Shown here: positions 18,801 to 59,365 of the stretch, one piece after another
Position numbering within the stretch: position 1 is the first letter of the stretch
Layout of the letters: each line of letters opens with the position of its first letter
NCBI GenBank assembly: GCA_030268105.1
Contig: BSDZ01000089.1
Coordinates: 1,054,001 to 1,118,000 of the forward strand
Length of the DNA stretch: 64,000 bases
Origin: Volvox africanus
Lineage: Eukaryota; Chlorophyta; Chlorophyceae; Chlamydomonadales; Volvocaceae
Reading direction: 5' to 3'
Made by a program: the position numbers and the translations under genes
The notes under the pieces: model-generated
Seen by the model: the letters and a program-made list of their open reading frames with translations, nothing else
Told to the model about the DNA's origin: nothing
The model's database searches: none

Positions 18801-20201
18801 GTAAGTTCGCGCACTGCAGCCTCGGCTCTCCTGTCTGACCTGCCATCACTAGGCTGCATGCCACGGTCCTAGGCCCGGTACCTCATGCACAAAATGACCC
18901 ACATTCATTCATTTCCCAGCGCTGGCCATGTTAACGCAGCCGTGGTCCCCAGCTATAAGCCCGCTGCCCGGCAGATGCGTACTGGCTTTTACCCCACAAT
19001 CTCATCTGTGAGGCTCCAATAAATTTCCTACGTGCAGCAGGACTCCCCCTCGTAAAAACCCCTCAGTATTCTCCCTCGTCTATGAGCGGTGTTTACATCT
19101 CAGCAACATGGCTAAAGCTACCCGGGAAAGTTTCCCTGACCTGTCCCTAACATTTAAGACCAAAACACCCCTCCACGCCTTCTTCCGCCTCCCCTCCTCC
19201 CACTTACCGTTGCTCGCAGCGCGGATTTCAGGGTGTGGTTTGCCAAGGACTTCCACGTCCCACCCATCGATACGTTCACGCTCCCAATCGCCTGGTATGT
19301 AAGCTGCAGTGACGGCACACTCAGCACCAGCATGTTGCTGCTAGCTTCCTCCTGCGTAATATGAACATGAGCACAAAAGCTCGGCCAATTAGTGTTGCTA
19401 TTTCCGCTATCAAGACAAAAAGTGTCATAAATGCCTGTCCCCGTCTAACGCACTACCAACTCAATGGACTTGGGCGTTGCACCCACATCACGTCGCGACC
19501 CGTCTCAGCGAAACACGATGGCATCTGAAGCTACGTGAACCTCGACACTTTAATATTTGCCTTGGGTATGTGCTCACCCTGACATCCAAGGACATGGGAA
19601 CGGTCAATGCGTCAGCGGTGAGGCCTTTTAGGCTGTCGACCCGCAAGTCGGTTATGATGCTGTAGCTACTCAGCCATCCTTCAACCAGTTCTGTGCGGAC
19701 GCTGGCCGTGAAGATGCCGGATTGACCGCTTACGGCGGCAAAGTTCCCCAGGGAAAACTTGACGCCCATATTGGTTATGTTGTAGTCGTACTGAGGAGCT
19801 GGATGGATTCCGGCTCCAACCGTTTTGCCCAAATGTTGAACTGGGTATACGCTGACGGCTTGCATGAAGGCGGTTGAAGAGGAAACCGAAGTTAAGGTAA
19901 AGGATGGCCAGTTAGCAAGCCAAGTTGTACGGTTACCCGGACACGCCGGAAGGGCCTGACTGACGGCGTACAGGTACCCGGTTAACCCGCGCCGAACAGC
20001 GGCGTCGTAAACCCCCGGCGAGCTGAGGCCATTCCCGGGGCCGGCCTCGGAGACAAGCATATTATTGCTGCTAAGATTAACTCTGCTTATCGTTGCGTCC
20101 AGCTCCAAACGAACGATACATGCACCGTCCGCGGAAAGTAGCGTTGCGAGGTTTACCCAAGCAACCAGCAACAGGACACTTCTCCGACAAGGCCTTGTCA
20201 T
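9842..20201 (-). CDS. ABCG-subfamily half-transporter with secreted cysteine-rich N-terminal domain
   Basis: A single long gene. The start ATG (20201) opens a signal peptide (SVLLLVAWVNLATLLSADGA) and a secreted domain. Exons supported by splice sites and phase: 19578-20201, 19208-19351, 18425-18521 (EGF-like, DCPAYCGDYGLCEV), 17840-17956, 17239-17351 (CPVGYN...CDACPSGFSGSGC), 16558-16711, about 16100-16326 (Cys-rich), about 15290-15524, 14280-14954 (TM helix plus linker), 13960-14074, 13512-13787, 12465-13278, 11766-11985, 11171-11235, 10583-10745, 9842-10085. The ATPase has Walker A GPSGSGKTT, signature LSGGE, Walker B LLLLDEP with D-loop SGLD, and the H-loop in SLHQP. The membrane domain follows (FFAVMLL, LPFYW, LLLLTCALFSGF) and ends ALRGRWE. 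The order ectodomain-TM-ATPase-TM resembles plant ABCG24/28-type proteins. Substrate unknown. Exons between 14954 and 16326 are incompletely solved, since the phases of two joins do not close. Confidence 0.85.
11646..11680. repeat. (CCCCAA)n short tandem repeat in an ABCG intron
   Basis: Nearly six units of CCCCAA lie in the intron between the ABCG exons at 11766-11985 and 11171-11235. The unit equals a ciliate-type telomere repeat, not the TTTTAGGG type of Chlamydomonas, so a telomeric origin is unlikely. On the transcribed strand it is G-rich (GGGGTT). Confidence 0.9.
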
Positions 20202-37000: not shown

Positions 37001-38096
37001 CCCGGTACTCGCCCTCCGGAACAGAGATAACCCCTGCGCTCATGCCGCCCGCACTGCCGCCAGCGAGGCTTGCTGCGCGTTGGGCCATGCTAACCGAGCG
37101 AGCGAATATGGAGCCACCAGTGGCGCCGGTGGCGTGTGAGCCGGCGTTTGAGGGTGCCATGGAGGTTTGGCGGCTTAAGGTTGGGGCCCCAGATGCGCCG
37201 GGGACTGCTGAGCGTGGCCGCATGCGCCCAGGGGATCCGGCACCTCCGACCGTGACGGTGACAGCGGAACTGGTGCTAATTGATGAGCGCAGCGGTAGTG
37301 CCGAGTGCGGCCGCAGCCGTGGGACGGCAACCATCGGAGTATTGTTCTCATTCACAGACAACGCGGCAGCGATGCCAGGAGAACCGGCGGCACTGCGGCT
37401 GGCAATCAGCGCATCTAGCATAGCGCGCGATTTCAAAGATGGTGGCACGTCACTTGATGCAACATCTACTGCCGCTGCTGCATCGGCACCCGCCACTGAA
37501 GCTGCTTCCGCCGTGCCCTCAGCCCGCACCGCCGCATACGCAGCAGCGCGGCGCCGTTCCCGAACTGCATACTGCATCTCCCTATTAAATGCGCCTGGTC
37601 GCAGCAGCACGCCCGTGCTGGCCCCCTCACTCGCCGCCACGCCCACGCCGTAGCCCACGCCGCTTCCAACCACAATCCCTGCTCCGCCATTGCCACCTCC
37701 GCCGCCACCGCCTGCACTGACGCTGCCACCGTCCCTTAAGGCCCCAAGTAGTATCGACTGTGCACGGATGGCAGAGCTGACCTCCAACCGCCGCTGCGCC
37801 CGAGCCGCCAGCGCGGCACATTCATGTTCAAGTCGCTGCACTCGGTTACTCTTGCGTGCGAGCTCCTCTGGCGCGGGATCCCCGCTCATGGGGCCTAGTG
37901 CATCCTGCGCCCATTTGTTCCACAGCTGCAGCGCTGCGGCCTGCCTCTCCGCCTTGGTGCCGCTACTGGTAGCCGCACTGGTGACGGAAGGGGCACCACC
38001 CGAGGGGCCGTGGAGCGCTGAGCCAGGACCGCCATGGCCCTGCGGAAAGCATTTGTGTGCCACCGGAGGATGATAGAAAAGAGTGACGCGTACCAT
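34018..38096 (-). CDS. Large coiled-coil protein, unknown function
   Basis: Four exons close in frame to about 1,013 residues: 36702-38096, 36195-36350, 35580-35911, 34018-35176. The ATG at 38096 is possible, but an acceptor at 38040-38041 (tttccgcag) is in the same frame, so the true start may lie in an upstream exon. The protein has a Gly/Ala/Ser-rich N-terminal region followed by coiled-coil segments: EYRALRQEMESVSERLAAT, then LEFLEDDKLGTFDQLLRTQE, then EEVTRLQQRLAEAQKAGEM and LQEQNEELRQELESME. The third exon has NLVHRLTARQAQLVALQTAV. The last has the well-conserved-looking block VWQQHFRNRADIRGRVVPTF, another coiled coil (KEVKRLQQQKRVLEAALARR) and a long disordered Ser/Pro/Gly tail. I do not recognise the family. 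The composition would suit a ciliary or basal-body structural protein, but that is inference only. Confidence 0.75.
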
Positions 38097-39400
38097 ACAT
38101 GTAGATCTGGATAATCGGATGGAAAGATTGGATAGGGTTGGGGGGGCTGGCTACTGGTGCAGTTCGGGCGGGTTTGCGGGGAGGGTTTGCTTTCTGCGGC
38201 AGTGGGTTTTAGTCAGCGGAGGCGGTATATTTTGCAGAGTTGTTAGGGTCGAGGGAAGGAACAGGCCATGGATCTGTTTGCGCAAATCAAATAACTGCAG
38301 CCTAGCGGCATGGCGTCGGCTGGGAAGCAAACACGTCAACATCATGGCCTGGAATGAGCTGAGGCTACCACCCCAAGATATGCGAGGAGGAGGCGTAAGA
38401 AGCGCACAGTAGGTGAGCAGATATTGGGGCAGGTTCAGGTTTCTCTAGTCGAACGCGGGCTCGGTTCCCTCCAGCGCGCGCCTAGCGTGGGTGGCGCCCG
38501 CAATGTGCCGGGCATAAGGCGCGCGACAGTTGGCCCAACACCCATCATGAATGTGACACCTACGGAATCAGCGTGTCCACTGACTGACATACATGAACAT
38601 GATAAGGCAGATTGGTTTGTTTGGGGTCCATTCCGTTTGACAGGGATCCATCCGAGACACGTTGAAAGTGGAGTTGAAAGTAGAAAACAGGTAAGGAACT
38701 TGCCATTTGGCACAGAGGTAAGGTCAAAAAGTCTTAAACGCAATAGGAGATATGTTACTTCAGCTTAAGGACGTGAAAATGCGTATAGCTCTTCGGCTCT
38801 CAGGCGGTGGTTAGACCCCGGTTTCAAGCGGCGCAAATCAGTCGTCAGAGCGAGCAACCGCTAAGCAGTTCAGACCAGAAGCAGAATATAAGCGCGATGA
38901 ATAGCTTTGTGCATTCAACGGATTAGACCTCTACGCCGTCGGAAGCATGCCTCACCTCTGGGGGTCTGGCACTCGGTGGGCGCATCCCAAGCAATCCAAT
39001 TTTCTCCTTAACGTTCATGATCAGGACTATCTACACACGGACAAAAGATTGGGGTCCCCAAAACCGCACCTCATGTGCCCCAAACTAAGAGATATGTAGC
39101 TTCGTGCCAGATAAAAATTCGCAGTCGATTTAGTTAGTCCGTCCAGTAAGAGCTTACGCGGTATTGTCAACAAAGGCTTATGTGATGGTTCGAAGTGCTC
39201 CGTACCTCTCCAAAATAACCACTAGACTCAAAGATGCATGAGGACGATTAACACTACTTTGCAAACGGGCTGAGAGTTTTACAGATAAAAGAAATAAGGC
39301 TGCTGTTCCTGCTATATTGGGTGTTGCAAGCAAGGCAACGTCGAGTAGTGTTCCTTCCGCGGCCCCCGACCCACATAAGCCCTCTGGTAGTGTGCTGACG
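38097..39400. other. Intergenic region between divergent coiled-coil and adenylate-kinase genes
   Basis: About 1.3 kb between the 5' ends of two divergently transcribed genes. It may also contain an upstream exon of the coiled-coil gene. No specific promoter element was identified. Confidence 0.45.
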
Positions 39401-42400
39401 ATGGGTTGTGGCGCTAGCAAAGCGGTAAGCGGCTTGGCTGCATCGACAGTCCCTTGACATGTCATATGAACGTTTGCGTCTTGGCACCATCAGGACGCGC
39501 CGACCAAGCCGTTGGAAAACAAGGAAACTGATATGGGCAACAAAGATTCTAAACCTGCCGCTGCGGTCGCCGAAGAGGTGCGGACATAATTAAGGTCACC
39601 GTTAGGGCAGAGGTCTATGAGTCGGTATATAGGGCAAAGTTATTTTGTTTTTTTGCGTATTCTACAATAAGAATTGCCTTGGATGGACAATATGGGTGCA
39701 ACGGTGTTAGAACCTGATTCCATTTTGGCTTGCAGGGATTCGCCTTGCCGCCGGTGGAGGGCGAGCTGTTGGATGGCACGCAGATTTTTTTCGTGCTGGG
39801 TGGACCGGGCAGCGGCAAGGGGACGCAGTGCGACAAGATCAAGCAAGACTATGAGTGTGTGCATCTCAGCGCCGGGGATCTGCTGCGCGCTGAGGTCAAG
39901 AGCGGCAGCGTCGTCGGCAAGAAGTGTGAGGAGCTGATGCGTGAGGGCAAGCTGGTGCCCTTTGCAGTGACACTCAACCTGCTGAAGAAGGCCATGATCG
40001 AGAGTGGTGGCAAGTTCTTCCTCATTGACGGCTTCCCCCGCGCCCTGGACCAGGCAGAGCAGTTTGAGCGCGCCATCATGCCGTGCAAGGCTGTGCTGTT
40101 CTTCGACTGTCCGGAGGAGGAGATGGAGAAGCGGTTGCTGAAGCGTGGTGAGACGAGTGGCCGCAGTGATGATAACGCTGAGACGATTCGCAAGCGCTTC
40201 CACACGTTCCTGGAGCAGTCTTTGCCGGTCAAGGATCATTATTTGGGCCATGGCAAGTGCCACGTGATTAGTGCGTTAGCACACCCGGATTTTGTGTACG
40301 AAAACGTCAAGAACGTTCTGGATAGCCTCGGGGCCGCCAAGATTCCTACGCCGGCAGCGGCGCCCGCTACCAAACCTGCAGAGGATGCCGCGGAGGTGAG
40401 AATATGTTACGTAGCACAGACTGCCACGCTGTCATCCGCCGGGCGGCGGGTGTAATAAAAGTAAGGAGTCTTGCCCGCTAAGCGTGTGATTTGCATAAGC
40501 AGCAATTCTGTCAAGTGTTTCACACCGGGCAGGTCTAGATTGACTTACAGGGTGCATGACTGCACGCATCCCTTGCCGACCCGTTTGTTTCGACCAAACT
40601 TCGCAGGAAATTACCCTGCCTCCAGTTCACGGCAAGTTGCCGGAGGATACACAGATCATCTTTGTGCTGGGTGGACCGGGCAGCGGCAAGGGGACGCAGT
40701 GTGCACAGATCCTCGAGGACTATGAGTGTGTGCATCTCAGCGCCGGGGATCTGCTGCGCGCTGAGGTCAAGAGCGGCAGCGTCGTCGGCAAGAAGTGTGA
40801 GGAGCTGATGCGTGAGGGCAAGCTGGTGCCCTTTGCGGTGACACTCAACCTGCTGAAGAAGGCCATGATCGAGAGTGGTGGCAAGTTCTTCCTCATTGAC
40901 GGCTTCCCCCGCGCCCTGGACCAGGCAGAGCAGTTTGAGCGCACCATCATGCCGTGCAAGGCTGTGCTGTTCTTCGACTGTCCGGAGGAGGAGATGGAGA
41001 AGCGGTTGCTGAAGCGTGGTGAGACGAGTGGCCGCAGTGATGATAACGCTGAGACTATTCGCAAGCGCTTCCACACGTTCCTGGAGCAGTCTTTGCCGGT
41101 CAAGGATCATTATTTGGGCCATGGCAAGTGCCACGTTATCAGCGCCATTCCGACGCCCAAGGAGGTATTCGAGACTGTCAAGGAGGTGCTGGACAAGCTG
41201 CATGCACCCAAAAAGTCTGAGGTAAGGTTGTTGCTGCTGGACTCTGATGGTGTTAACTCCCTGGGTTTGGACAGGTTAGGCGGCAGCTTCAGGAAGGCGC
41301 TTGGCGCGATTTCCGATGACATGTCCCCTCCGCATTTCGGCCGCGGCACACGCCCATCTCTGCCCCTGCCGCACGCCCGCGGCACCTCCACCCGTCCGCC
41401 GGCTAGATGGGCTCTACACCACCCCTACGGCCCTGTGCGCGCATACATGCCTCTGTGGCCCTGTGTAGTGTACGGGGGTATGGGGGTATTGATGATATGG
41501 TATCAGTCCCGTGCCGAGCTAGCTAGCAGCAAGTGCACATCACGGCTCTACCTGCGGCTGTCTCGCGCTCGAGCAGCAGCCTGCGCTGGTCAGCAGGTAG
41601 GGCGGGCAATGATGAGGTGCAGAGCGTGGGGATGGATGGGCCAACACCGTACCTACGCACCCTGCACCCGGACATGCAAAGACCCGCCCGCACATACAGC
41701 ACGTCTGATGTCAGTCACGCGGTCCATCCATGTGCCTTTTCCCTGAACATGGGAGGACGCTTGAAGGGGGTCGATGGCTCAATCTGGGCCCACGGAGTTG
41801 TACAGTAGGGGATATGTCTGTGGGGCTCAGTTCAGGAGGGCAAGGGTTAATAACACGTATCGAGACCAGGTTTCCATCCTGGGACCTCGGGGTTGTGAAG
41901 ACCGCACGCTTCTGCTGCGCCATCTCGATTCCTGATGACATGCCCCATCCGCATTTCGCCCGCGACACACGCCCATCTCTGCTCCCGCCTCACGCCCGCG
42001 GAACCTCCACCCGGCCGCCGGCTAGATGGGTTGCCAGGTCTCAATATTAGAAATTAGTAACGCTAAAGCCAGGGTTGCAAGGGTTTGAAGGATTGGGCTC
42101 TGACAGCATGGCTGGCGTTTTCCTGGGCTCATTGGGATGCAAGGATGCAAATGGGGAACCCGAGTAGTTGGGCGCAAAATGCTGACGCCGTAAAATGTCT
42201 GCCTGAAAGCTAATGAGCTCCTGTGGCGCCAGAGTAAGGCTTGAATATGGCACAAGCTATCCTCATGCCTGCATTAATATTGCAAATTGTTTAAATCATG
42301 CGAAGACTATTCAGGTAAAATAGGTAGGCATCCCCTAAAATGGCCCTGAGAGTGAGGGTGCCATGAATGCTTATCAGGGGTTGCAAGTTTAAGCCGGGCT

Positions 42401-45400
42401 GCCAACGGCATGCTTCTTAACGATAACCGGGTGGTAAGGGATCTGGGGGGGCCCCAGTAAGAGTATGAGCAGCAGAGATAGCACGGCTGTTCAGTTGTGT
42501 ACCTGTCCGCCCTCACTGGCTGGGACTCATCAGCGGTTAAATGCTCTGCCCGGGAAGTGCGAACCCATGGCCGCTAGGTTGTCCATTCGGAGCTGGCACA
42601 TAGATAGGGGCCCCACAGAGCGAGAGAATCTGCGAAATCAAACAACCCAGCGAACCCTAGCGGCCCCAACAATGGGGTACGCGAGCCCCATGGTGTAAAG
42701 TTAACCCCCAGAGTTCCCTATAATACACGCCGGGCTACAGCCGGCGTAATACAATAGGAAGGCTGATTTTTACTTTGTTGGATAGAACCCGTACAAGTAA
42801 CTGTGGTAATAATTTACTTTCAGTACACCACAGTGACAAACATTTCTTGCTGCGTTACAATCAACCCTGTTGTTACCCACATACATATTTGGTGATAATA
42901 TACTATTTGTGTACTTCTATGCACGGCCTTGCCTGCATGGCGATCCATATCACGCTGCCTGTTTGTATTCTGTTGCCGCAGGAAATTACCCTGCCTCCAG
43001 TTCACGGCAAGTTGCCGGAGGATACACAGATCATCTTTGTGCTGGGTGGACCGGGCAGCGGCAAGGGGACGCAGTGTGCACAGATCCTCGAGGACTATGA
43101 GTGTGTGCATCTCAGCGCCGGGGATCTGCTGCGCGCTGAGGTCAAGAGTGGCAGCGTCGTCGGCAAGAAGTGTGAGGAGCTGATGCGTGAGGGCAAGCTG
43201 GTGCCCTTTGCGGTGACACTCAACCTGCTGAAGAAGGCCATGATCGAGAGTGGTGGCAAGTTCTTCCTCATTGACGGCTTCCCCCGCGCCCTGGACCAGG
43301 CAGAGCAGTTTGAGCGCACCATCATGCCGTGCAAGGCTGTGCTGTTCTTCGACTGTCCGGAGGAGGAGATGGAGAAGCGGTTGCTGAAGCGTGGTGAGAC
43401 GAGTGGCCGCAGTGATGATAACGCTGAGACTATTCGCAAGCGCTTCCACACGTTCCTGGAGCAGTCTTTGCCGGTCAAGGATCATTATTTGGGCCATGGC
43501 AAGTGCCACGTTATCAGCGCCATTCCGACGCCCAAGGAGGTATTCGAGACTGTCAAGGAGGTGCTGGACAAGCTGCATGCACCCAAAAAGTCTGAGGTAA
43601 GGTTGTTGCTGCTGGACTCTGATGGTGTTAACTCCCTGGGTTTGGACAGGTTAGGCGGCAGCTTCAGGAAGGCGCTTGAATTCACAGTTGTCAGGTTTCA
43701 ATATTAGATATTGGTAACGGAAACGTCAGGGTTGCAAGGGTCTGAAAGGATTGGGCTCTGTACAGCATGGCTGGCGTTTTCCTGAGTTCATTGGGGTGCA
43801 AGGATGCAAATGGGGAACCCCAGTAGTGGGGCGCAAAATGCGGACTTCCAGTACACCACAGTGACAAACATTTCTTGCTGCGTTACAATCAACCCTGTTG
43901 TTACCCACATACATATTTGGTGATAATATACTATTTGTGTACTTCTATGCACGGCCTTGCCTGCATGGCGATCCATATCACGCTGCCTGTTTGTATTCTG
44001 TTGCCGCAGGAAATTACCCTGCCTCCAGTTCACGGCAAGTTGCCGGAGGATACACAGATCATCTTTGTGCTGGGTGGACCGGGCAGCGGCAAGGGGACGC
44101 AGTGTGCACAGATCCTCGAGGACTATGAGTGTGTGCATCTCAGCGCCGGGGATCTGCTGCGCGCTGAGGTCAAGAGCGGCAGCGTCGTCGGCAAGAAGTG
44201 TGAGGAGCTGATGCGTGAGGGCAAGCTGGTGCCCTTTGCGGTGACACTCAACCTGCTGAAGAAGGCCATGATCGAGAGTGGTGGCAAGTTCTTCCTCATT
44301 GACGGCTTCCCCCGCGCCCTGGACCAGGCAGAGCAGTTTGAGCGCACCATCATGCCGTGCAAGGCTGTGCTGTTCTTCGACTGTCCGGAGGAGGAGATGG
44401 AGAAGCGGTTGCTGAAGCGTGGTGAGACGAGTGGCCGCAGTGATGATAACGCTGAGACGATTCGCAAGCGCTTCCACACGTTCCTGGAGCAGTCTTTGCC
44501 GGTCAAGGATCATTATTTGGGCCATGGCAAGTGCCACGTTATCAGCGCCATTCCGACGCCCAAGGAGGTATTCGAGACTGTCAAGGAGGTGCTGGACAAG
44601 CTGCATGCACCCAAAAAGTCTGAGGTAAGGTTGTTGCTGCTGGACTCTGATGGTGTTAACTCCCTGGGTTTGGACAGGTTAGGCGGCAGCTTCAGGAAGG
44701 CGCTTGAATTCACAGTTGTCAGGTTTCAATATTAGATATTGGTAACGGAAACGTCAGGGTTGCAAGGGTCTGAAAGGATTGGGCTCTGTACAGCATGGCT
44801 GGCGTTTTCCTGAGTTCATTGGGGTGCAAGGATGCAAATGGGGAACCCCAGTAGTGGGGCGCAAAATGCGGACTTCCAGTACACCACAGTGACAAACATT
44901 TCTTGCTGCGTTACAATCAACCCTGTTGTTACCCACATACATATTTGGTGATAATATACTATTTGTGTACTTCTATGCACGGCCTTGCCTGCATGGCGAT
45001 CCATATCACGCTGCCTGTTTGTATTCTGTTGCCGCAGGAAATTACCCTGCCTCCAGTTCACGGCAAGTTGCCGGAGGATACACAGATCATCTTTGTGCTG
45101 GGTGGACCGGGCAGCGGCAAGGGGACGCAGTGTGCACAGATCCTCGAGGACTATGAGTGTGTGCATCTCAGCGCCGGGGATCTGCTGCGCGCTGAGGTCA
45201 AGAGTGGCAGCGTCGTCGGCAAGAAGTGTGAGGAGCTGATGCGTGAGGGCAAGCTGGTGCCCTTTGCGGTGACACTCAACCTGCTGAAGAAGGCCATGAT
45301 CGAGAGTGGTGGCAAGTTCTTCCTCATTGACGGCTTCCCCCGCGCCCTGGACCAGGCAGAGCAGTTTGAGCGCGCCATCATGCCGTGCAAGGCTGTGCTG

Positions 45401-48307
45401 TTCTTCGACTGTCCGGAGGAGGAGATGGAGAAGCGGTTGCTGAAGCGTGGTGAGACGAGTGGCCGCAGTGATGATAACGCTGAGACGATTCGCAAGCGCT
45501 TCCACACGTTCCTGGAGCAGTCTTTGCCGGTCAAGGATCATTATTTGGGCCATGGCAAGTGCCACGTTATCAGCGCCATTCCGACGCCCAAGGAGGTATT
45601 CGAGACTGTCAAGGAGGTGCTGGACAAGCTGCATGCACCCAAAAAGTCTGAGGTAAGTGTTTTGTAAGTTTGTGTATTGTTGGGGTCCCATGTACGGAGA
45701 CATCTGCTTGCCATTAGTACGAGCTCCTGCCCAATGTGTCATGTCATGTAACGTTATGTTTTGGCATCCACGCGTAGTCGACATAGCACATTGATTATGG
45801 GTCAGTTCATTTTCACCGAGTCCTGGGTCAGTTCGTTTCTTGGGTAAGCTGTCTGGATGAATTGCCACCCAAGGCCGTGCTTTTCACACCCAATATGTTT
45901 GTACGTCCAAAGGACGTTAATTGGAAAGCTTGCCCTAGGTTTTTAGAAGACCAAGCTTGAAATCAATTTAATCTGATTGCATAGCTGTTGTATTGCACAC
46001 AAGTTGAAATGGAATTAGTACCGGCAAATGTGGATGCCTTTGTGTGAGTGCCTAGTACATAAGAAGCTTTCGTACCAGTGTTTTTTTTCTCGTTTTTGGG
46101 ACCCATACTTTGGGTCACAGGTCAAGTAACGAAAAAACGTTTCCGTTTCGGTGGTTATACTTACAATGGCGAAAAAGGCCAGGGGGCCTTTTGTGCCACC
46201 TCAGAGCATGAAAACCCCTAAAGTCCACCTTGCCTCAGCTCTTAGGTGGTTCACTTTGTAATACAGGGTGCAATAGCGCATGATTCCGGGGTGCAAGTTT
46301 CCCCATTACAATCCTCCCCATCCTGCAGTGAACGTTCTCGACCGCCCCTGGCACCCTGTAGGGCAGCTTGCGCCTTTCACCCGACGGATGGGGTTCTTTT
46401 GTTTTCCCGGCACTATCGTCCACTTTTCTTCATTTAGGGCGGCGGGTCGTAACCCTGGCGCAGCGCCAGCCCGGATATCCACCATAGAGCAGACAGGATT
46501 CATGCACATCTTGTCGTGTTCGCATCAACCTGTGTTTGCTAGTCGGGGTTCGACCCAGGGACCTTGTGCTAAATTGTAATAAGTCCTAGGCATATAGGCA
46601 CGTGCAGAGAGCCTTAGGCTGGAGAACCCCACTGTCCTGGTGGAACAACTTGCCATGGACTATGATCTAGCTTAACAAATTGTTTTTTTGTCTTTGGAAG
46701 AGCAACAGCTTTTGGGGGCTTCATATCATCATCCGCATGCGTACATTCATAAGTTTTCAAGGCCAAAGTGCCTCTTTTGTGTAGTATCCTGGGGTATTGA
46801 CGGGTAGTGTCCAGGATGGGACCGTGTATGGGCATCTTCCGATAAGGCCCTTGCTTAGGGTGACACAACAGAGATACAACGTTTTGTGAAATTTACCGGG
46901 CCTTGGGGCCCGGTCCCCCAGCAGTGGGAGGGGGGCCTTGAACCAGGGCAAATATCTTAAAATTCCCTCAATACAATTGTCAAACTCTATAAAACCTACC
47001 TGGAGGTGTTACCCCATTGTAAGATTTTAAATAGGGTAACAATGGGGTAATTTTGGACCATTATTTACCTAAACACATTCCAGGATCATACACCTTGTAC
47101 CATCCATCACACGTAACCATCCCAAGTCCCGACCAATTTTCCTGGTTACTGCTTCTGAAGTCCAAAAATAGTTTTTGGTTACGGAAAAGTAACTGGTTAC
47201 TGAAAAAACACTGTTTCTTATCCACTGCTAACTAGTCGGGTATTGTTGGAGAGCATGGTCTATGTGCGGCTACTGCATTTACGTAGTTCACTTCAATCTT
47301 TCACTTGTGAAGGATGTCACCTGATACGACGCACAGATATTGCTGAATAAACTACCTAAACCAAAAATATAATAAACTGCCGAATAAGATAAATAACTAG
47401 AAGATATAAATGGTTTTATCTACGATTACTAGACTAGGTCATAACAGCGGTAGCAATAATATTAATGATGGCGGCCGTAGCCTGGCGTTTGTTAATAAGG
47501 GGGTGGAGAACTGAGGGGTTGCATACCCTCCCCTGTATGCCCGCACCACCATACATCCGACAAAATGAATTGAGAGCAATATTAAGCAGCCAATTGTAGA
47601 TTGGTCCATATGGAGCATGCCTAAAGCCGCTGTTGCAGGTCTGTTTACTGGTTTTGAGTGTTGACATTCGCTTGCTTCGCTTATCTTGCCCGCAGGAAAT
47701 TACCCTGCCTCCAGTTCACGGCAAGTTGCCGGAGGATACACAGATCATCTTTGTGCTGGGTGGACCGGGCAGCGGCAAGGGGACGCAGTGCGACAAGATC
47801 AAGCAAGACTATGAGTGTGTGCATCTCAGCGCCGGTGATCTGCTGCGCGCTGAGGTCAAGAGCGGCAGCGTCGTCGGCAAGAAGTGTGAGGAGCTGATGC
47901 GTGAGGGCAAGCTGGTGCCCTTTGCGGTGACACTCAACCTGCTGAAGAAGGCCATGATCGAGAGTGGTGGCAAGTTCTTCCTCATTGACGGCTTCCCCCG
48001 CGCCCTGGACCAGGCAGAGCAGTTTGAGCGCGCCATCATGCCGTGCAAGGCTGTGCTGTTCTTCGACTGTCCGGAGGAGGAGATGGAGAAGCGGTTGCTG
48101 AAGCGTGGTGAGACGAGTGGCCGCAGTGATGATAACGCTGCGACGATCCGCAAGCGCTTCCACACGTTCCTGGAGCAGTCTTTGCCGGTCAAGGACCATT
48201 ATGAGCGCAGGACGTTGTGCCATGTGATTAGTGCTGTACTAACGCCAGATGAGATCTACGAAAACGTCAAGGATATTCTTGACCGGCTTGAAGCGCCTAA
48301 GAAATAA
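39401..48307 (+). CDS. Six-domain adenylate kinase with N-terminal acylation signal
   Basis: Eight exons give 1,279 residues: 39401-39424, 39494-39577, 39736-40395, 40607-41221, 42982-43596, 44010-44624, 45038-45652, 47696-48307. All introns are phase 0. Exon 1 encodes MGCGASKA, a fit to N-myristoylation (Gly2, Ser6) with a palmitoylatable Cys3. Exons 3-8 each encode one entire AK1/UMP-CMP-type nucleoside-monophosphate kinase domain (residues 37-256, 257-461, 462-666, 667-871, 872-1076, 1077-1279). Each has the P-loop GGPGSGKGTQ, the NMP site HLSAGDLLR, LIDGFPR, and the short-type lid RGETSGRSDDN. The enzyme would interconvert 2 ADP with ATP and AMP. Domains 2-5 are almost identical at DNA level; 1 and 6 share CDKIKQD where 2-5 have CAQILED. 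Multi-domain adenylate kinases are known in algal flagella; that location is inferred from the family and the acylation signal. Repeat number may be affected by assembly. Confidence 0.9.
41303..42030. mobile_element. 728-bp insertion bounded by ~105-bp direct repeats, in an adenylate-kinase intron
   Basis: The intron after adenylate-kinase domain 2 matches the compact introns of the following cassettes on either side of this block. The block is absent from those introns, which have a few other bases at the junction. Its two ends, 41307-41411 and 41926-42030, are direct repeats of each other (both end GGCTAGATGGG, with roughly one difference per eight to ten bases by eye). This architecture resembles a terminal-repeat miniature retroelement, but no TG...CA ends, primer-binding site or coding capacity is evident, so the class is uncertain. 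Confidence 0.45.
42821..45652 (+). repeat. Tandem 1,028-bp exon-intron cassettes of the adenylate kinase gene
   Basis: Three successive cassettes start at 42821, 43849 and 44877, exactly 1,028 bp apart. The third diverges after its exon at 45652. Each holds a stretch of intron, one 615-bp adenylate-kinase exon and the next intron. The introns at 43597-44009 and 44625-45037 are both 413 bp and look identical. Only a handful of base differences are visible between cassettes. Confidence 0.9.
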
Positions 48308-49172
48308 TAGATCATTGAGACTTGTATGCAGGAAGATTCGATAGGTGAGCGTAACTGCGTGATTAGGACCTATGGTTGTGAAAGGACCTTGCGTTGCTTT
48401 TCCCTGAGTGGATGGCTGTACGCACGAGGTTGTTGCACCTCAGTCGCAGTAATGTGTCTTGAAGGTGAGCTATTTTGCAGGCTATGCTGCTAATTTATTT
48501 AGGTAGGAGCTGTCACGTGGATTTAGGTGTGCATGGATTTATGTGTGTTGCATTAGCATGTATACGAGCCACCTTGCAAGAATTGACTCATGTTGCACCG
48601 CGCGTTCCAGCAGAACGCAGTATCGCACCGGGGTTGATGTGTACAATCGATCTACTATGAATGGCGACGTCTGAAGGCACGCTACCTGTAGCAAGTTAAT
48701 TCCCGCATTGCCCTTATCCATCGGTTTTGGCTCAATGGCTTATCCATGTAAACTGTGGGACCATCTATTTCCGTTAAGAGACTCTAAAACGATGCACTTA
48801 GGCACTAGCATATCCCTCGCTCCATGGCAAATGTAAAGAATTGAAGTTCATAGATGCACAACAGCGAAGCCTGGTATCCGTGTAACGCGACCCTATGGAA
48901 CAGAGATCTCTTTATCTTGCTCTTACCGGACCGGCAAGCAGCACAGCTACAGCAATTCCCACGCACCCGGTCGTTCAATACATACCCTGAACGAGGACAA
49001 CAATCCATGAGATATCAAAAGACATGCGATGGTTCATGCAATTTGACCCATAATACAAAGGCATAGTCCGATTTGCAAAGCCTCAACCGAAGAGCAATCG
49101 CGATATGTTCATATTTCTTCGCGATCTGATGAGTGATTATGTACAGGAGGGCAACCTCGCCTCATCCGCTCA
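48308..49172. other. 3' flank of the adenylate kinase gene
   Basis: About 860 bp between two convergent genes. No coding potential recognised. It contains TGTAA pentamers at 48747 and further on. Confidence 0.45.
48747..48751 (+). terminator. Candidate TGTAA polyadenylation signal
   Basis: TGTAA is the usual polyadenylation signal in Chlamydomonas and Volvox. This copy is 440 bp after the adenylate-kinase stop. The pentamer also occurs by chance, so the call is weak. Confidence 0.25.
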
Positions 49173-49385
49173 TTACCATTCCTCTTCGTCGTAGCGGTTC
49201 ACTTTAATCGGATCGACCAAGATGCGCGGTTGCTTGGGCTGCGCCCGCTCCTCCACTGTTTGGGGAGCCGCGGGCGCCCTGCTTCGATTAATGCACATTT
49301 TGACAGCCGCTACGCCCCCCAAGCTTGCAGCAATGGCTGGAGCATTGGCCACAATGGCCGTCGTAATGCAGACAGGGCACACCAT
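49173..49385 (-). CDS. Possible 70-residue protein with CPVC motif and hydrophobic segment
   Basis: A single-exon frame starting at ATG 49385. The protein starts MVCPVC, followed by an Ala-rich hydrophobic stretch (TAIVANAPAIAASLGGVAAV) that could be one membrane span. A Pro/Glu-rich linker and an acidic aromatic tail (KVNRYDEEEW) follow. The organised layout of a Cys pair, one hydrophobic helix and a charged tail argues for a real small protein over a chance frame. I do not recognise it. A 161-codon frame overlaps on the other strand and looks like its shadow. It could also be the last exon of a longer gene. Confidence 0.45.
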   Translation of the reverse strand: MVCPVCITTAIVANAPAIAASLGGVAAVKMCINRSRAPAAPQTVEERAQPKQPRILVDPIKVNRYDEEEW

Positions 49386-50988
49386 TCTTCGATGATGGAA
49401 TTTGAAGGCCTGACTGAAGGTGGTTGCAAACGGCCGAAGGCGAACAGCGGCAGGAAAAGTTTTTTGCCGCGTAATTTAACCAACGAGCATATTGTGCATA
49501 CGCCTGAATACACTGATTGTGTTTCTGGTATGGCCATAGTTAATAAGATTATAGAGAGATGGCAATTGAGACGGAGCTGCATCAGCCGTGGGAACATCAC
49601 TAGAAAGAATAGTCCGGTCTTTGATATCTCTCAAGCAATTAGTAAAATAAGATATGAATTTGAAGTCCCACTATGCGATAGGCGCGCGCAACGCCCAGCG
49701 CTATGGAAGAATTGAACATATGGCAAAATGCAGCAAACCACATCCCGCCCGTTTCACCTTGTGTGCAGACTAAAAGGCTGTTCAGAGATTTCCTGGTATC
49801 CTGCCGAGTGCGCAGGTAAAGGTATCTCGGAAAGGTTAGACGAGCAGTCGGTATGAAGCTGCAGCGACAAACGTGCACCAGCATGTTACAGCATGGTTGC
49901 CCAATGCTTTGTTTAAATAATGGAATAGCAAACTTGTCTCGCCCATGGCAAGCCAAGGATTTTTTGTCAAGCAACAGCAACATACCTCTTAGGAAGGGTT
50001 CTATCATAAAGCTTGTGTTGAGCAGAGTTCGCCTGAAATGATTAGTTCTACCAATACATAAACAAAGCAGCAGAACAATTTGAGTAAAGCGAAATGAAGC
50101 AAGAGCTTGGTCCTTAAGTTTTATGCCAATGCGTAGCTATTTTGGACGTCAATCTTCGGAACGGCACAGGACGGCATATATAACGCGTAAACTTGTGTTC
50201 AACGTCTGTAAAATAACTTGTTTTATGCAGTTCATCATTTCCTACTATCCTGCGTACCGCGACACAGGGGCATGTACCGGCGGGTGTGTATGGACCTGGA
50301 GTGGTTGCTCCGGTTAGTTAGGGGTTAGTTAAAATCATGAACAACCTCTGCACATTTGCCGTGCATGGCCTCTGCCGCCTTCAAACTTGCCGGCTACAAT
50401 CATTAATGACCTTATCACAAGCAAGCCTTGTAAATTTCTTACTTGGTGAAGACCGACTGTTTTAAATGCTTGAACTTAACATGCACCGCAAACATTCAAG
50501 AACTCTTACAACTCTTACTTCAGAGCAGAGTTGAGATCTCTTGTCGCATGGAGGGTCGCATCACACACTTAGCAACTTCTTAATGCCCTGTTGTTTATAG
50601 TTTTTGTATTGTCATACCTTTGAGTCGCGGAGCGGTGTTGTACTAAAGCTAAGAAATATATTTATGTTGACTACGGAGACATACAGGGTTGCACACACAT
50701 CACCAGAGCTTGTCAGATTGAGGGAATCCGTCGTACAGCAAGCACTCTGCTTGTTTGCCATGCGAAAATGTACGTCCAATAATCAATGCGACTCCAATCA
50801 GATTGCTCTAGACCATACTGAAATGCGAAAGCTTATTTTTGGTTGCCGAAGCTTGCTTTAGGCGGCCTGATTCTAATGCTATCAACGATATACCCTTGAA
50901 TATCTTATACTAATTTAGGATCTGTCGAGAGCATAACGTCAGCAAGCATGGTAGGGCAGCTCCTCGGATCGGTGTGGGGTCCCGTTAG
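49386..50988. other. Intergenic region upstream of VPS35
   Basis: About 1.6 kb, AT-richer than the flanking genes. Only short frames without recognisable content. It should contain the VPS35 promoter. Confidence 0.45.
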
Positions 50989-53900
50989 ATGAACCTGAGA
51001 AACTCTGCACAAGTTCCTCTGTTACAGGATACTGTGGCGTTTCCGTCAGCGGATGAACAGCAGCGCATATTAAATGATGCCAGTACCGCAATTAAGCGGA
51101 GTGCCTTTCTCATGCGGAAGGCCATTGTAAGTGGGAAGTACGGGTTGGCTTTGGCTTAAGAGCCTAGTCCTTGTACTGAGCATGGTTGATTTAAAACGAC
51201 ATGTCATGCGGACTATTCACGGGTCCGAAGTGGGCAGCAGTGTTTCGATGCCCCTTGCCTTGGCCTTACCCTCCCTTTGATTTTACGTCATCTGTAAGCC
51301 ATGTGACATAGCCTTCTGTACCTCCGTGGATGGAGATGTGGTAGGACCTGTTCTGCAGTGTGGTACCCCGCGTGTGAAATTCCAGCTATAAATCCCGCCG
51401 TAGCTGACTTGCTGAACGCTTCCCGGGTGTTTTGTGGCACGGGCGTCTCTCCGTTGTGCCCTTCTCAGGAGGATGACAACATGCGGGACTCACTTAAGCA
51501 CGCGGCAGGGATGCTGGCAGAGTTACGCACATCTCAATTGCAGCCCCAGAAATACTACGAGCTGTACATGTTGGTGTTCGATCAGCTGGCTCACCTGGAA
51601 GTGAGCGTGCGGTTTCCGGATTGGTTATACAATGGTCTGCAATTTCGCCTGCATTGGGGGGAGGCTGGATTGCCGGCATGCCTCCAGAAACAACAGCCAA
51701 AGCGCGTGTGATGCCCAAGTGCCTCTATACCGGCATGCCGATATGCTCTCCATGTACTTGGGAAGGCTAAGTAACGGTACATAGGTTCCGCGGCGGAGCC
51801 TCCCATGCGTATACGCACACGAGCTCATTGGCAACCATGTATATACGTGCATGTGGGCCCACCTGCCACCTGTGGAAGGTGGAATTGAGCACTCAAAGTA
51901 CCACACCTTGATTCCATCTATCTGATGTGGTGGCCCTGGCTGCTCCTTGTGTAATGTTCGTTGCATCTCCCTGCAGTAGTCAACCTGGTACTCCCCAGCT
52001 TCCAGCAGGGTTTTGGTCTTCTCCGCCCCGCCCCTGCGCGTTTCACTCTTTCCGCCTGCTTCTTCTCTTCCCGCCCTCCCACGCCTGGCTTGGGTCCTAT
52101 TTTCCTTCCTCCGCTTGGGGCTGCAGGGCTTCGGAGTGGTTTGCGACATCGTGGTGCCTCGCCACATGGGCCTCTGAGCTGTACCACAAGCAAGATCGCA
52201 CATTCTTATTCCTAAAATAAGGCCTTCTTACCTCATTCTATCTCTCCTCGCGTAAGCCACACACCATTGCGCTGCGCATCCCACTGCCGCTTCATGGATT
52301 TTCCGGGCCCCGCCCTTTCCAGGCTTTCTTCTCGGATGAGCGCGGCAAGGGTAGGAGCTATGCAGAGCTGTATGAACTAGTACAGCATGCGGGCAATGTG
52401 CTGCCGCGACTGTGAGTATCCTGTTGCTGGGATCCTGGGGGACGCAGGTCCTCTGGACCGGGTCAGCAAGCTGGTTTTAGCTGTGCTTATTCTGGCAGGG
52501 GCTGAATGAAAAGGAACCAGGACAACGGATCGGCAGAGCGTAGTGCCTGGAAGATGCACCGGCCGTGATAGCTTGGCCATCCGCTGACACGGAAGGACTG
52601 GCCTGGGCGTGATGTGGTGGGATATGAAGAGGTCTAGGATTGCATAATACTGTTTTGAAATTCCTGTCTTTGGGGACAAGACCGTGCGAGGTTCTGTCTG
52701 GGGGCTCGGGCCTACATTGTCGCAGAACAGCGTGGTGCGACCCCCACTCGTTTCAGCCAATCAAATCCACTATGCTTCAAAGCTTGGACGGTGATAGCGA
52801 TAGTTATTTGTCGTGCAAGCCAGGCGCTACTCCCTGGATGTGTTGTACTGCATGCTTGTCGCTGATGGGATCCCCTCGCCATTTCTTGCTCATCTCATCT
52901 GCAGTTATTTAATGGTCGCGGTGGGCTGCCTGTTCATCAAGTCTCATGAAGCTAGCCCCCGGGACGTGCTCAAAGATCTCGTGGAGATGTGCAAGGCGGG
53001 TTTGGGGTTCGGGCGCGCGGTGCTTTCATGCGCACCTAGTGCGTAAAACTCAGCTGGTTGGTTGGAAATTCAGACAGGCGGCTTTGTAGGCGCCAGTTGT
53101 GAACTGTGTATTGAATTTTTGAAGCTTTCCGGAGCCAGAAGATGTCTGTGGCTCAGCCCCAACCAAAGGCTGTGGCTCAGCGGGTCGACACCACCTGCAG
53201 CAGTGTATACCTCCCTTTCAGCTATCCATCCCGTTTCACCTATCCTTTCGTTCTTGCCGCCCGGTCTCTGTCTCTGTCTATCCCCACTGCAGGGCGTGCA
53301 GCACCCAACCCGCGGCCTATTTCTGCGGGCCTACCTATGCCAGCGCGCGAAGGGGCTGCTCCCCGACACAGGCAGCCAATACGAGGGCCCTGGCTCGGGT
53401 TCCATTCAGGATGCTCTCGACTTTCTGATGACTAATTTCATTGAGATGAACAAGCTGTGGGTGCGACTGCAGCATCAGGGCAGCGCCAGGTAACGGGCTT
53501 CTGGTATGCGGGCGTACCTATGAGTGGTGGTGGTGAATGCGTTGTGCCCGGATGCAGGCTGGGCCGATGCGGAGATGCGGTTTGGCCTGGGGTTTTGGTC
53601 GCACTCTAGGTCCAAAGCGTCTTGTGAGTCGAAATGATTTATGTTGTGAATTGCGGCCGGGGGCCGTCAGGGGTTTGGTGAGTGCAAGAGGGATTGGGAG
53701 GGGCCAGACACGGCGGGGAAGGAACTTTTTATGGTCAGTGGGTACCCGGAGGCCGCGGGTTGGGAATTGGCCCAGACGGTGGCTGCTGAGACGGATGGAG
53801 CTGAGGCCCTGCTATTGCACCGTGCGGTGCATGGTTGTCATTCATATCTCCAGGGACAAGGAGAAGCGCGAGCGTGAGCGGCAGCAGCTCCAGGACCTGG

Positions 53901-56900
53901 TGGGCAAGAATCTGACCTACCTCAGCCAGCTGGACGGGCTCGGCTTCGAGCTGTACAGGGACCAGGTGCGGGGCGCGGCAGGGGAGATAGAAGGGTTGGA
54001 AAACAACGGACCCAGTTGCCGGAACCCACGGGCGCTGCTCACCTACAAGAAAGGAAAGATACAGAACTGAAGGAGAGCACTAAGGGCTAAGGGCAAGGGC
54101 AGGCCTTGGTAGGGTGGCCGGGGAACGTTTTTGCTTACCTTATGGCATGCACCATGCCTACAGCCCTGTCCCGCAGTGCAGCGCAACGCCTGGCTCCGCT
54201 TTCGCTCTCACCTCAACCCTCACCTCAACCCCACCATGTATTCAAGCATGCGTATACGCCCAACCTGGCGGTCCATTTCCGCTCTTCATAGCGTCTTTCC
54301 ATCCCCGCATTTCCACCTCCGCATGCACTCAGGCTTCGGTTCATAACTCTCTTGGCCCTGAGGTAACCGATGCATTTTGCTTGCATCGGTGTGTATGTCG
54401 TCCCGCCTCGTGTATGTATGGGACTGTCCCTTTAACAGCCCTCAGTGTCTACCGACGTCAATTTTCGTTCTATCCTGAATCACCACGCACCGGTGCCCCC
54501 AGGTCCTCCCCCGCGTGTTGGACCAGATCACCAGCTGCAGGGATGACCTAGCTCAATTATACCTCATGCAGGTGAGGGCCGTGGGTTGTGAGTAGCTTAG
54601 AGGCCGGGGGGGACCGAGGGGATGCTAGTGTGTGTGGGGGGGGGCTGCATGACTGTGCGGGTGCAGTGCGACTGCAGCTGGTGCGGCTGCATCGTCCCAG
54701 GCGTTTTCCGTGGCGTGTCGTGGCATTCTCTCATATCCGTTTGGTCATCACCTCATTTTGCAGCGTTCCCCTCCTGGCATGTCGTTCCCTTTATCGCTCT
54801 CGCAGGCCCTTATCCAGGGTTTCCCTGACCGCTTCCATCTGGGTACGCTGGAGGCGCTGTTGGACGCGCTGCCGCAGCTGCAGCCGGGAGTAAAAGTAGG
54901 TGGAAGGGCGGTGTGACAGGCGGAGAGTTGGGGTTGTGGACAGTTTGGGATGCATCTGGACGACTTCCGAGAACCATAACGGCGAACGACACCGCATTGT
55001 GATTAGTGGCCCTCGTTTGCTGCATTTCTTACTTGTATTGATTCAGGTTAACGATGTAATTGGAGCTGTTGTTGTGTGATAGCTTCCAAATGAGGCTGAG
55101 AATTTGCACCCTTAATCGTTCCATGAGGCCGTGACGGAAAAAATGATATTGCCACAACTCCCCCGGACGGACGCCCCCTAAATGTAGGTTCACAGCGTGA
55201 TGGCGGCGCTAATGGACCGCCTGGCTAAGTACGCAGCTTCGGCTGCGAGCGGATCAAACGACCCACGGGTCCTGGAGGAGCTAGCAGCCATTGATGCCTT
55301 CAGCAAGTTTAAGAAGGCTATCGCCAGGGTGCGCCTGGTGGCCTAGGATTATCTGCGGCTAATCGTTACCTTCACATCGAAGTCACTACCGTCGTGCGCA
55401 GTGCTATAGGCCCCCTAATTTACACCTTATCTCAGGGAGACATTTGCGGGAGGTGGGAGTCATGTCCAGGGCCAGGTGGGCTCCTTGTAGGAGAGTCCGC
55501 TGCCTGTAAAAGGAACCGCCTGGCCACGATTTCCACCTGCCGCAATGAATCGAGGAACACCTTCTGACGCACCAATGTCTCGAATGTAACCAACCATGAT
55601 ACAGCAAGAAGCGCAGTTATCGGTCCATAATATATTCCATTAACGTCCGTCGCTTTACATGGCGCCGCAGATCATCGCCTCACAGCCCAATCTAGCGGCG
55701 GCTGATGCAGTGGAGATGTACACAGCCCTGCTGTCATACGCTGGCTCTGTACACCCTGGCGTGCTGTCAATTGTGGACGAGGTGCTGGCGGCGGCACACA
55801 GCACCCTGGGTGACCGCGGTCGTGGCCTGGGAGGCGACGCCCGCGCTGAACGACAGCTGATGTCCTTGCTGACGGTGCCGCTGAGCAAGTGGGTTTGGTA
55901 GGAGGGACTGCTGGCTCTTGAGCTGCGGATAATTTTGCGTCTTGTGGTTCTGGTGGCTACGCTAGGGCATCAACCGGTGGGGGTGCTTGGGTGCAGAAGG
56001 ACACCCGATCCAGAACCTGGGTGCGGTTACGCTGTGTTGGCCCCGTGGAACATGGGCCGCCATGGGACTACAGACCAACTGTAGATGTGCACCTGTTTCT
56101 AAGAGCTCCAAAGATAAGATGAGACTGTTTTTGCAAAGAAGGGACCGAAAGAAGAGGAGCAGCAAAGAACGGCCCTGGATGGCTTGTGCCCGACAGGTAC
56201 GGTATAAGCGCCTGCTTGGAGCTAAAGGAGTATCCGCTGCTGACCCGGCTGCTGCGTTACGTCACGCACAAGGAGCTGGCTATCAAGATTGTACACAAGG
56301 TGCGCGCGACAGAACGGTCCCGCGGGGTGGCGAAGGGTGTCGAAGGCAGTCACCCCTAGGCGCACATCTGCATTCCCTTGGTTCCATTTGCGAAGGGCGC
56401 GAGCCTGCATGTGGTCTTTTCCTCACTCCAGGATCTGCCAGGCCTTTAACTCACGTGTTGCTCCACACCCTGGCCTGTATCGCTTTGATCCATGCTGCTC
56501 GCCGTGGGCGCAACCCCACTCACCGCCGCCTCTCTTTCCATCTGTGCAGGTCCTAGACACCGTGTCCGCGTCGGCGAAGTCCGGCCATGGCGCAGGTCCT
56601 GCCTCTGGTTCTGGTGTGACCCATATCTCCACAGTGGAGAAGGTGTCAAGCTTGTTCCGCTTCATCTCTCCGTTGGTGGCGGACCCGGATTTGCCCGGGG
56701 AGTCGGGGGGCGCGACGGAGATGGACGATGAGGTGCGTTCTTGTCCAGGTGGAATGGGCACGCCGGGAGGAGGAATGTACAGCGGATGAAGACGGCGGAT
56801 AAAGGATAGAGGACAAAGTAGGGCACAACGACGGGTAACCAGGGTAAGGGAAGAGAACGCGCCCACGGTTGATTTTTGGAAGTTCAAGGCAGCAGTAAGA

Positions 56901-59365
56901 GGGAAGGGGACAAGAAGGGACGAACCTGACGCTATTCTCCCCTTCACACATGCTTTCCTGTAGTCCTTAGTCCAGGGCACTGCGCTCCCCTCTTCCCTCT
57001 TCCCTCCATTCATACTCATGTTGGACTCTGTTTGGGTTTTGGATTCGTTGCATTCACACTTAGGTTTAGCTTCATTACATTCGTTCTATTTCTAATCCTT
57101 GCGCCATCCCCTTGCGCCTCTTCTGTCGCCGCCATCCCCAGGACCTCGAAGAGGAGCAGGTGCTTGTGGCACGTCTGCTGCACCACCTGCGCTCCCCTGA
57201 CCCCGGCACCCATTTTGCCATTCTTAAGATCTCTCAGCAGCAGCTGCTGGTGGGAGGCCCCCGTCGCCTGCGCACCACGTTGCCTGCCCTGGTCTTCTGT
57301 GGTTTAGAGCTGCACCGTAAGCTCGTCAGACCACCGGCTCCAGCGCTGGCCGCGGAGGCAGCAGAGAAAGACAAGGGTAAGGACGACATGATTGGTAAAG
57401 ATGGAGATGAGGCGGCGGCACAGGATGGGAAGGGCGTTGCACCGGCGGCGGATGGCGAGGTTGAGAAGGAATCCGAGGCCCCGGCACCTGCTGCGGCAGT
57501 TGCGGCAGTGGAGCAGAGCGGCTCGGACGCGGACACGAAGCCTGCGGTGGGTGATATCTTGGTGGAAGGCAAGAACGGGCTGGAAGGAGGGGTGAATGCA
57601 GTGAGTTTTGCGGACTTTCGGAACTTCACAGTGATTCGGCACGTGCTCAGTTTGGAGGGAATTTTAAGCAAACACGCAGGCGGCTATGCAGATTTGCTGC
57701 GTTTCGAGGTTTCCAGGTAACGTCTTCTGGGGGAAGCTAGGCATAGCTAGTTACAGGGCTGGGTAATAACATCGTTGCTCTGCGTACAATTTCATTGATG
57801 TAGTATTGCGTGTGAGGTGTGCGGAATCTAGCGCCTACGGAATCTGGCGTGAGGCGGCCAACGTGGCTCCTTAGGGTTCAGTAGTCAGCTCAGCGACCTT
57901 CCCGCCCTCCATCGCCTTGCCTGCCCCCTAGGTCAGCTGCGAGGAGCTGCTGCAGTTCCTGCTGGCGGCCATTGAGCCACTATGCGGCGGACCTGCTGGC
58001 CAGCCCGTCGTGGCCTCCAGGTTACTGCTCGCGTGCGGCTACGTCGCAAGTGAGGAGGCCCACCTGGAACTGCTGTCCTACACGTTCTTCGAGGAGGTGC
58101 GTGTGGTTCTACGTTATACGGCCGGGTATCGGTCGGCGGCGGCTGGCCTGCCCAGGAAAACCCGTGTGATAACCCATAAGGATATAGGCATTCATTTTAT
58201 TAATGATATTCTTGAACTTAAAGGCAACGATCAAATAGAAAATGTTGATTTTTTATCACCTATTCAAGACCCAGAAATTGCTTCTAAAAAGCAAAGTATA
58301 GTAGATGTACTTTGCAGGCATTTTTGAGGGGGTCAGCAGCGGATATCCTGTTTTGGCTATTGGATAGGAGGAAGAATATAGGAGTACCTACTCCGGTGCC
58401 GACCCCCCAACAGGCATTAATTTTGTACGATGAGGCGCTCTCGGACCAGCGTACACGTGCCGCGGCACTTTACGACATCATCGGCTACCTGCAACGCTGC
58501 CGCGTTTTTGGTCCCGAGAGCCGCGACAGCCTCACTTCAGCCGTCACATCGGCCTGCATGAGACTTCTTTCGCGGAGGGAGCAATGCAGGGCGCTGTGCG
58601 CAGCTGCATTCCTATGGTGGCAGCTGTCGCCCGGGGCATCGCTGTCGGCTGGTAAAACGGACGTCGAAAAGGCGGTCAACGGTGGTGGCGACAGGGGGAC
58701 GGCAAACCAGGGCGAGGCGGGTGGGCTAAAGGAGGTGGAGGCAGAGGCGCAGCCGGGACTGTACCCACCTGTGCGCGACGGCGACAAGGTGCGTGAGAAG
58801 GGGAGGGGAGACTGGGGCCAGGTGCGTTAGTAATGTGCACCTGCATGAGGTGTGGGGGAAGACTGCAGGTCCGGTGCGATGTTGTGTTGTATACGTTGCG
58901 GGCTCCTTTACCAACTAAGGGTGCTCGGGCAGGCGGAAGGGCAGGATGGCTACGCGAGGCGCAGGGGTGCATGCCGCATTGCAAAGCGGAACCTGTCGGG
59001 CCACTCCTCATACGTCCATCCGCTCGTTATAAACTCGTGCTGCTCCGGTGGAGCTTTTGTTAAAAAGCTCCCCTTGAGATTCACGCAACAGCCAGAATGA
59101 TCTCTCACGCATCGCGATGGCCGCATTACTGCTCATATGACGAATATCTCGGACCAAGCCAGGCAAAAGGACCACCACAAACAATCCGCGCATCCATCAT
59201 CGCCTCGGTGATGTTCGCGGTGGAATAATGCTGCGGACACCATCCCTGGCCCCTGTGCCCGAGTCCGTTGTCCATCATGATCCGACATCCGACTTCTCTC
59301 CTCTTGAACAACCTTGCCGCCTCGGCCGCAGTGTCTGGCGCAGTGGTTCTTCAAACTCACATTTT

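Follow-up and report, generated by a model that had tools for sequence, protein, structure and literature searches.

A Megaira-type gene fragment in a VPS35 intron of Volvox africanus and the scattered Rickettsiaceae-like DNA of its genome

How does a short stretch of AT-rich DNA that reads like part of a bacterial nuclease gene come to lie within an intron of VPS35 in the green alga Volvox africanus? The window analysed here, a stretch of 64 kb, contains on its forward strand a VPS35 coding stretch at 57136–57324 (PF03635 profile positions 460–522, E 2.2e-9, searched with 57070–57717), an exon at 57932–58096 assigned by position and frame (a Pfam search with this exon alone gave no match), a 317-bp intron at 58097–58413 and a further exon at 58414–58671 (profile positions 591–660, E 6.2e-17, searched with 58414–58827). 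The intron, correctly delimited in the original prediction, has GT..AG borders (GAG/gtgcgt...caacag/GCATTA), sits between the codons GAG and GCA and is confirmed by the exon translations and by the Vps35 matches on both sides. That prediction had read the AT-rich block in it as a single, recent insertion of a Rickettsiales-like PDDEXK_2 fragment.

The bacterial homology covers 58175–58317 (143 bp, in sense to VPS35) and may extend to 58320 with one gap; the predicted place, 58169–58315, was therefore nearly exact, its start lying 6 bp too early. The GC content of the predicted block is as low as had been noticed, although it amounts to 29.3% and not to the 31% given, as compared to 53.9% for the 64-kb window, in which only about 0.02% of all 147-bp windows are as GC-poor. 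For 58175–58317 the value is 29.4%, with flanks of 64% and 57%, and the intron outside the insert has 62.8% in its 5′ part and 52.1% in its 3′ part. The uninterrupted frame also exists: it stays open between 57932 and 58327 and shares its phase with the preceding VPS35 exon, which is expected by chance one time in three. Translation of 58151–58327 yields 58 amino acids matching PF12784 (PDDEXK_2) with E 3.9e-6 at profile positions 16–62 of 229, and thus the family was rightly named, even though the score of 27.2 bits falls just short of the gathering cut-off of 27.4 bits, as befits a truncated derivative; in NCBIfam no family matched the same 58 residues. The fragment spans 47 of the 229 profile positions and stops soon after SIVDVLC, so that, with the catalytic motifs at the positions where we assume them to be in PDDEXK_2, a complete PD-(D/E)XK catalytic core is absent; both gene ends are missing. 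A complete nuclease is thus not encoded, and the fragment is most likely without function.

Three other islands of low GC content lie in the window. Two 38-bp matches (87–89%) to different contigs of the Erken metagenome-assembled genome (MAG) introduced below were found in and beside the island 6256–6406 (window positions 6215–6339) and are possibly older, decayed symbiont scraps; two islands of at most 33% GC, 8138–8309 and 47270–47484, are without match among the Megaira records searched. Separately, the window contains at 39731–47990 a gene segment in six copies (89–100% identical), of which those at 42977, 44005 and 45033 are tandem copies spaced by exactly 1,028 bp. Its translation (FVLGGPGSGKGTQC...) resembles, as we read it, a UMP-CMP/adenylate kinase. 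Tandem Repeats Finder, run on 38000–51000 with a longest period of 500, reported nothing there; the 1,028-bp spacing came from a separate repeat search.

From which organism does the insert stem? In a plasmid collection seven records matched, four from Ca. Megaera polyxenophila, two from Wolbachia and one from Cardinium. The best is pPCS201 of Ca. Megaera, with 94.6% DNA identity over 97% of the query, and the significance of the DNA matches reaches E 5e-57, which excludes chance. Among species genomes 52 loci matched, the top one being in the lake Rickettsiales MAG ErkenSummer bin-4287 (94% amino acid identity), whose copy is 95.1% identical to the insert at the DNA level. A tree built from 39 DNA rows gave a six-row Megaira clade with support 97/90, comprising three Megaera plasmid copies, the Erken MAG copy, the insert and a second nuclear copy on contig C13; within it the insert groups with the Erken MAG copy (95/86), a finer placement that is unsure since the alignment has only 140 columns. 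The Rickettsiales origin thus holds, on DNA matches of 94–95% and on the tree placement, and the comparisons support narrowing the donor to the Megaira lineage of endosymbiotic Rickettsiaceae; the breakpoints and the age of the insert are approximate.

The nuclear copy on C13 allows one to ask whether a single transfer, followed by duplication within the nucleus, accounts for the repeated PDDEXK_2 pieces. The two copies are 92% identical, and some other matches in the genome look host-amplified, as such a history would predict. However, the C13 copy pairs with pPCS148 (99/95) and the insert with the Erken MAG (95/86, on the same 140 columns), and the breakpoints of the two differ. We therefore consider a single transfer to be very unlikely, and at least two independent captures of this gene family to be likely as judged from the sequences.

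As to the age of the insert, its recency had been deduced from the open frame. This argument was dropped: allowing for substitutions only, at 5% divergence a frame of this kind would still contain no stop with a probability of about 0.78, and its openness is consequently no evidence of recency. The low divergence is better, though imprecise, evidence, together with the finding that among 138 bases compared with six relatives (the nuclear C13 copy and one distant MAG included) the insert has only one substitution of its own, Val to Gly at 58188; all other compared bases agree with at least one relative. The single private substitution weakly favours a recent insertion and gives no date.

Could the fragment have been joined to the algal contig by the assembly process, from contaminating bacterial reads? 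Living rickettsial endosymbionts do occur in volvocine strains (PMC4324946). But the 143-bp piece lies between VPS35 exons in a 2.8-Mb contig and thus within a host chromosome, short pieces of different kinds occur by the dozen in many contigs, with identities from 69 to 100%, and the published assembly of V. africanus strain 1101-NZ-11 was built from approximately 197x PacBio data (PMC10291315). An assembly chimera or contamination is in our view exceedingly improbable, and the transfer of endosymbiont DNA to the nucleus stands, with Megaira-clade DNA located between the exons of VPS35. The prediction had noticed one insertion, whereas the assembly contains many.

Many more such pieces were found when the host assembly (140,993,249 bases, 126 contigs) was searched with four 20-kb queries of Megaira-type DNA. 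Two stretches of pPCS201 gave at least 45 matches each (40 of 70 and 40 of 159 candidates scored, respectively) and two contig ends of the Erken MAG at least 43 and at least 41 (40 of 56 and 40 of 59 candidates scored), that is a total of at least 174 matches from 80 kb, roughly two per kb. A single 20-kb stretch of one unrelated plasmid, pcBtQ1 of Cardinium, served as control and gave two weak matches (77 and 71%). For pPCS201 stretches 1 and 2 and Erken ends 1 and 2, in this order, the matches have median lengths of 113, 213, 98 and 122 bp and median identities of 89, 94, 90 and 89%. The pieces are fragmentary and mixed in identity, mostly 50–500 bp long and 69–100% identical, and are distributed over many contigs. 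From gene names assigned by reading the translations, we take one Erken contig end (lysyl-tRNA synthetase, nuo genes, pyrH) to be chromosomal, and likewise the other (htpG, tsaD, alr). All 20 regions chosen from the pPCS201 match rows matched Megaira again in a local search, which confirms these rows and is not an independent sample.

It should be noted that the counts are of matches and not of events, because repeated matches at query positions 19093–19203 of pPCS201 stretch 1 and 9545–9728 of stretch 2 look like amplification on the host side after capture. In addition, five weak rows (76–80%) at positions 14980–15109 of Erken end 2 may be host genes. Extrapolation from the at least 84 matches per 40 kb of chromosomal query to a symbiont genome of about 1.7 Mb yields some 3,500 matches, a figure that derives from two stretches and again counts matches, some rows being duplicates made in the host or, possibly, genes of the host. 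This would amount to about one piece per 40 kb, which is in line with the one clear piece in the 64-kb window (for 20001–44000 the comparison comprised selected plasmid and MAG pieces). As a separate observation, repeated pieces of Megaira transposase, istB and integrase genes lie within approximately 50 kb at C26:1627696-1681719 (89–98%) and C36:341676-394215 (94%) and are apparently symbiont DNA amplified after capture.

The PDDEXK_2 family is annotated as transposase in the plasmid records, and PF12784 pieces are present at at least five places in the host genome, the VPS35 intron included (a lower bound, since the genome-wide family search did not return the insert itself). Hence, one has to consider that a PDDEXK_2 (Rpn) element reached the nucleus by its own transposition. 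However, both gene ends are missing from the insert, the other PF12784 pieces begin and end at different gene positions and thus are without constant ends, other plasmid and chromosomal regions have been captured too, and a flanking repeat sought at the Megaira insert in the VPS35 intron was not found. Self-transposition can therefore hardly be credited.

The junctions elsewhere in the genome are instructive in this respect. At 6286–6670 of locus L085 on C13 four pPCS201 pieces from separate places of the plasmid abut one another with one shared base per joint; two of these places lie about 1 kb from each other. A flanking repeat beyond the null expectation, for which the longest repeat was 10 bp in 400 random placements, was seen at only one of the ten inserts examined, a 540-bp Megaira insert (C76:3006996-3007535) with a flanking repeat of at least 14 bp (CCAGTTGCGCACGT); the other nine are without. 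When DNA debris is joined end to end, as is established for NUMTs and NUPTs, breakpoints are random, concatemers arise and target duplications are variable or missing. NUMTs and NUPTs likewise comprise short and concatenated pieces ascribed to this process, but in V. africanus the donor is a bacterial endosymbiont and not an organelle. The scattered pieces, the concatemers and the general lack of target duplications fit repeated capture by end joining rather than transposition. Dying endosymbionts would have released broken DNA, fragments of which would have been ligated into double-strand breaks in repeated episodes, either singly, as in VPS35, or as concatemers; the VPS35 piece would have survived because introns tolerate such DNA. 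Taken as a whole, the locus is very probably explained by a scrap of Megaira-type Rickettsiaceae DNA captured in the algal nucleus, presumably by end joining, with what appears to be a later TIR-type insertion beside it. NUMTs and NUPTs are organelle DNA in the nucleus (PMC7037861).

Two further observations concern such loci. The region C13:3739000-3746500, in which the four joined pieces lie, is a mosaic that gave 14 matches, distributed over two Megaira plasmids and the MAG. At C100 a Megaira piece adjoins a stretch whose ATP-grasp/CPSase matches are weak and below the cut-off (best E 2.3e-5), and the stretch on its other side had no match in the family search; this piece is possibly also located in an intron.

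The 3′ part of the VPS35 intron has a history of its own. Next to the Megaira piece there is an 88-bp segment (58323–58410, forward strand) with imperfect terminal inverted repeats, TTTGAGGGGGTC... and, reverse-complemented, TTGGGGGGTC... It is flanked by a perfect 8-bp direct repeat, presumably a target duplication: the upstream CAGGCATT at 58315–58322, the CAG of which is shared with the end of the Megaira match, and the downstream CAGGCATT at 58411–58418, which extends across the present splice acceptor (CAG/GCATT). The inverted ends rank best among 561 8-mer repeat pairs in the 64 kb and were equalled by one pair in 40 resampled windows, a statistic that is post hoc since the repeat was noticed before testing; the DNA fold z of the segment is −3.0. 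In its inverted-repeat ends and the 8-bp repeat at its flanks the segment resembles non-autonomous TIR DNA transposons of the hAT-like type, whose target duplications are 8 bp long. Unlike multi-copy MITEs, it appears to have no second copy, a genome search, in which diverged copies or very common words can be missed, having returned only the segment itself. A 16-bp match at 56231–56246, where no such repeat ends are seen, was taken as chance. We infer that the 88-bp segment is a TIR-type insertion later than the Megaira piece.

If this insertion was late, the Megaira piece once formed the last 143 nucleotides of the intron and ended with ACTTTGCAG. Before it, the Megaira ...ACTTTGCAG would have abutted the VPS35 exon GCATTA, and the Megaira end would have served as splice acceptor or have merged with the acceptor by microhomology; the TIR-type element would then have inserted at the splice junction, duplicated CAGGCATT and moved the acceptor to its present place. 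The two candidate acceptors are 96 nucleotides apart, equal to 32 open codons, and either one keeps VPS35 in frame. That Megaira DNA supplied the 3′ end or acceptor of the intron before the 88-bp insertion, and that the nucleus at the same time samples a large part of the Megaira genome, is as a joint reading quite possible, though short of probable. A different proposal is that the fragment is itself spliced into the VPS35 mRNA, or its TTTGCAG used as acceptor, which would be compatible with the frame that continues without a stop from the upstream exon as far as 58327 and with the 32 in-frame codons that an acceptor at 58317 would add. The preservation of a frame by chance is, however, not rare, and the 32 extra residues would split residues that we take to be adjacent in VPS35 homologues. 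Such recruitment is unlikely.

Rickettsial inserts are already known from Volvox carteri, and the insert in the VPS35 intron most likely joins this known class of nuclear integrants. In V. carteri, pieces of rickettsial 16S, murB, ddlB and ftsQ were ascribed to endosymbiotic transfer from a since-lost symbiont (Kawafune et al., 2015, PMC4324946); in strain EVE they lie in one 9-kb region, although Table S1 of that paper may list more. As far as the text of that paper goes, both cases concern fragments that the nuclear genome of a Volvox received from the Megaira ("hydra") group, the donor being apparently lost in V. carteri, and they differ in what was captured: the four genes mentioned in V. 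carteri, and PDDEXK_2 in a VPS35 intron plus many scattered plasmid- and chromosome-like pieces in V. africanus. MurB_C was searched for in the V. africanus genome and not found, and the 9-kb region of strain EVE was therefore not recovered. The closest well-studied parallel found is that of the nuclear Wolbachia transfers (NUWTs) of filarial nematodes, for which Vancaester et al. (2025, PMC12693587) report 12 to 818 initial matches in each genome. There, too, DNA fragments of a Rickettsiales symbiont, most of them non-functional, are dispersed through the chromosomes of the host and record past infections, in another host kingdom and from another symbiont; owing to the different method their numbers are not directly comparable with the at least 174 matches from 80 kb. 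A literature search, with most subscription papers and preprints outside its scope, gave no report of rickettsial DNA in V. africanus: the one paper mentioning both Volvox africanus and rickettsia does so in its reference list only, and the main texts of the volvocine genome papers PMC10291315 and PMC10256686, as far as accessible, do not contain the word rickettsia.

Of interest, then, are how far the invasion went and the possibility of a splice acceptor derived from the symbiont. The findings also warn against taking every short rickettsial match in an algal assembly for contamination. The Megaira scraps in V. africanus are likely a fossil record of past infection, and if the genome indeed samples a large part of the Megaira genome, past infections would be readable and datable from the algal nucleus. 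It would thereby become testable how frequently Megaira infects non-phagotrophic algae, how symbiont DNA enters and joins chromosomes, and whether such scraps alter splicing.
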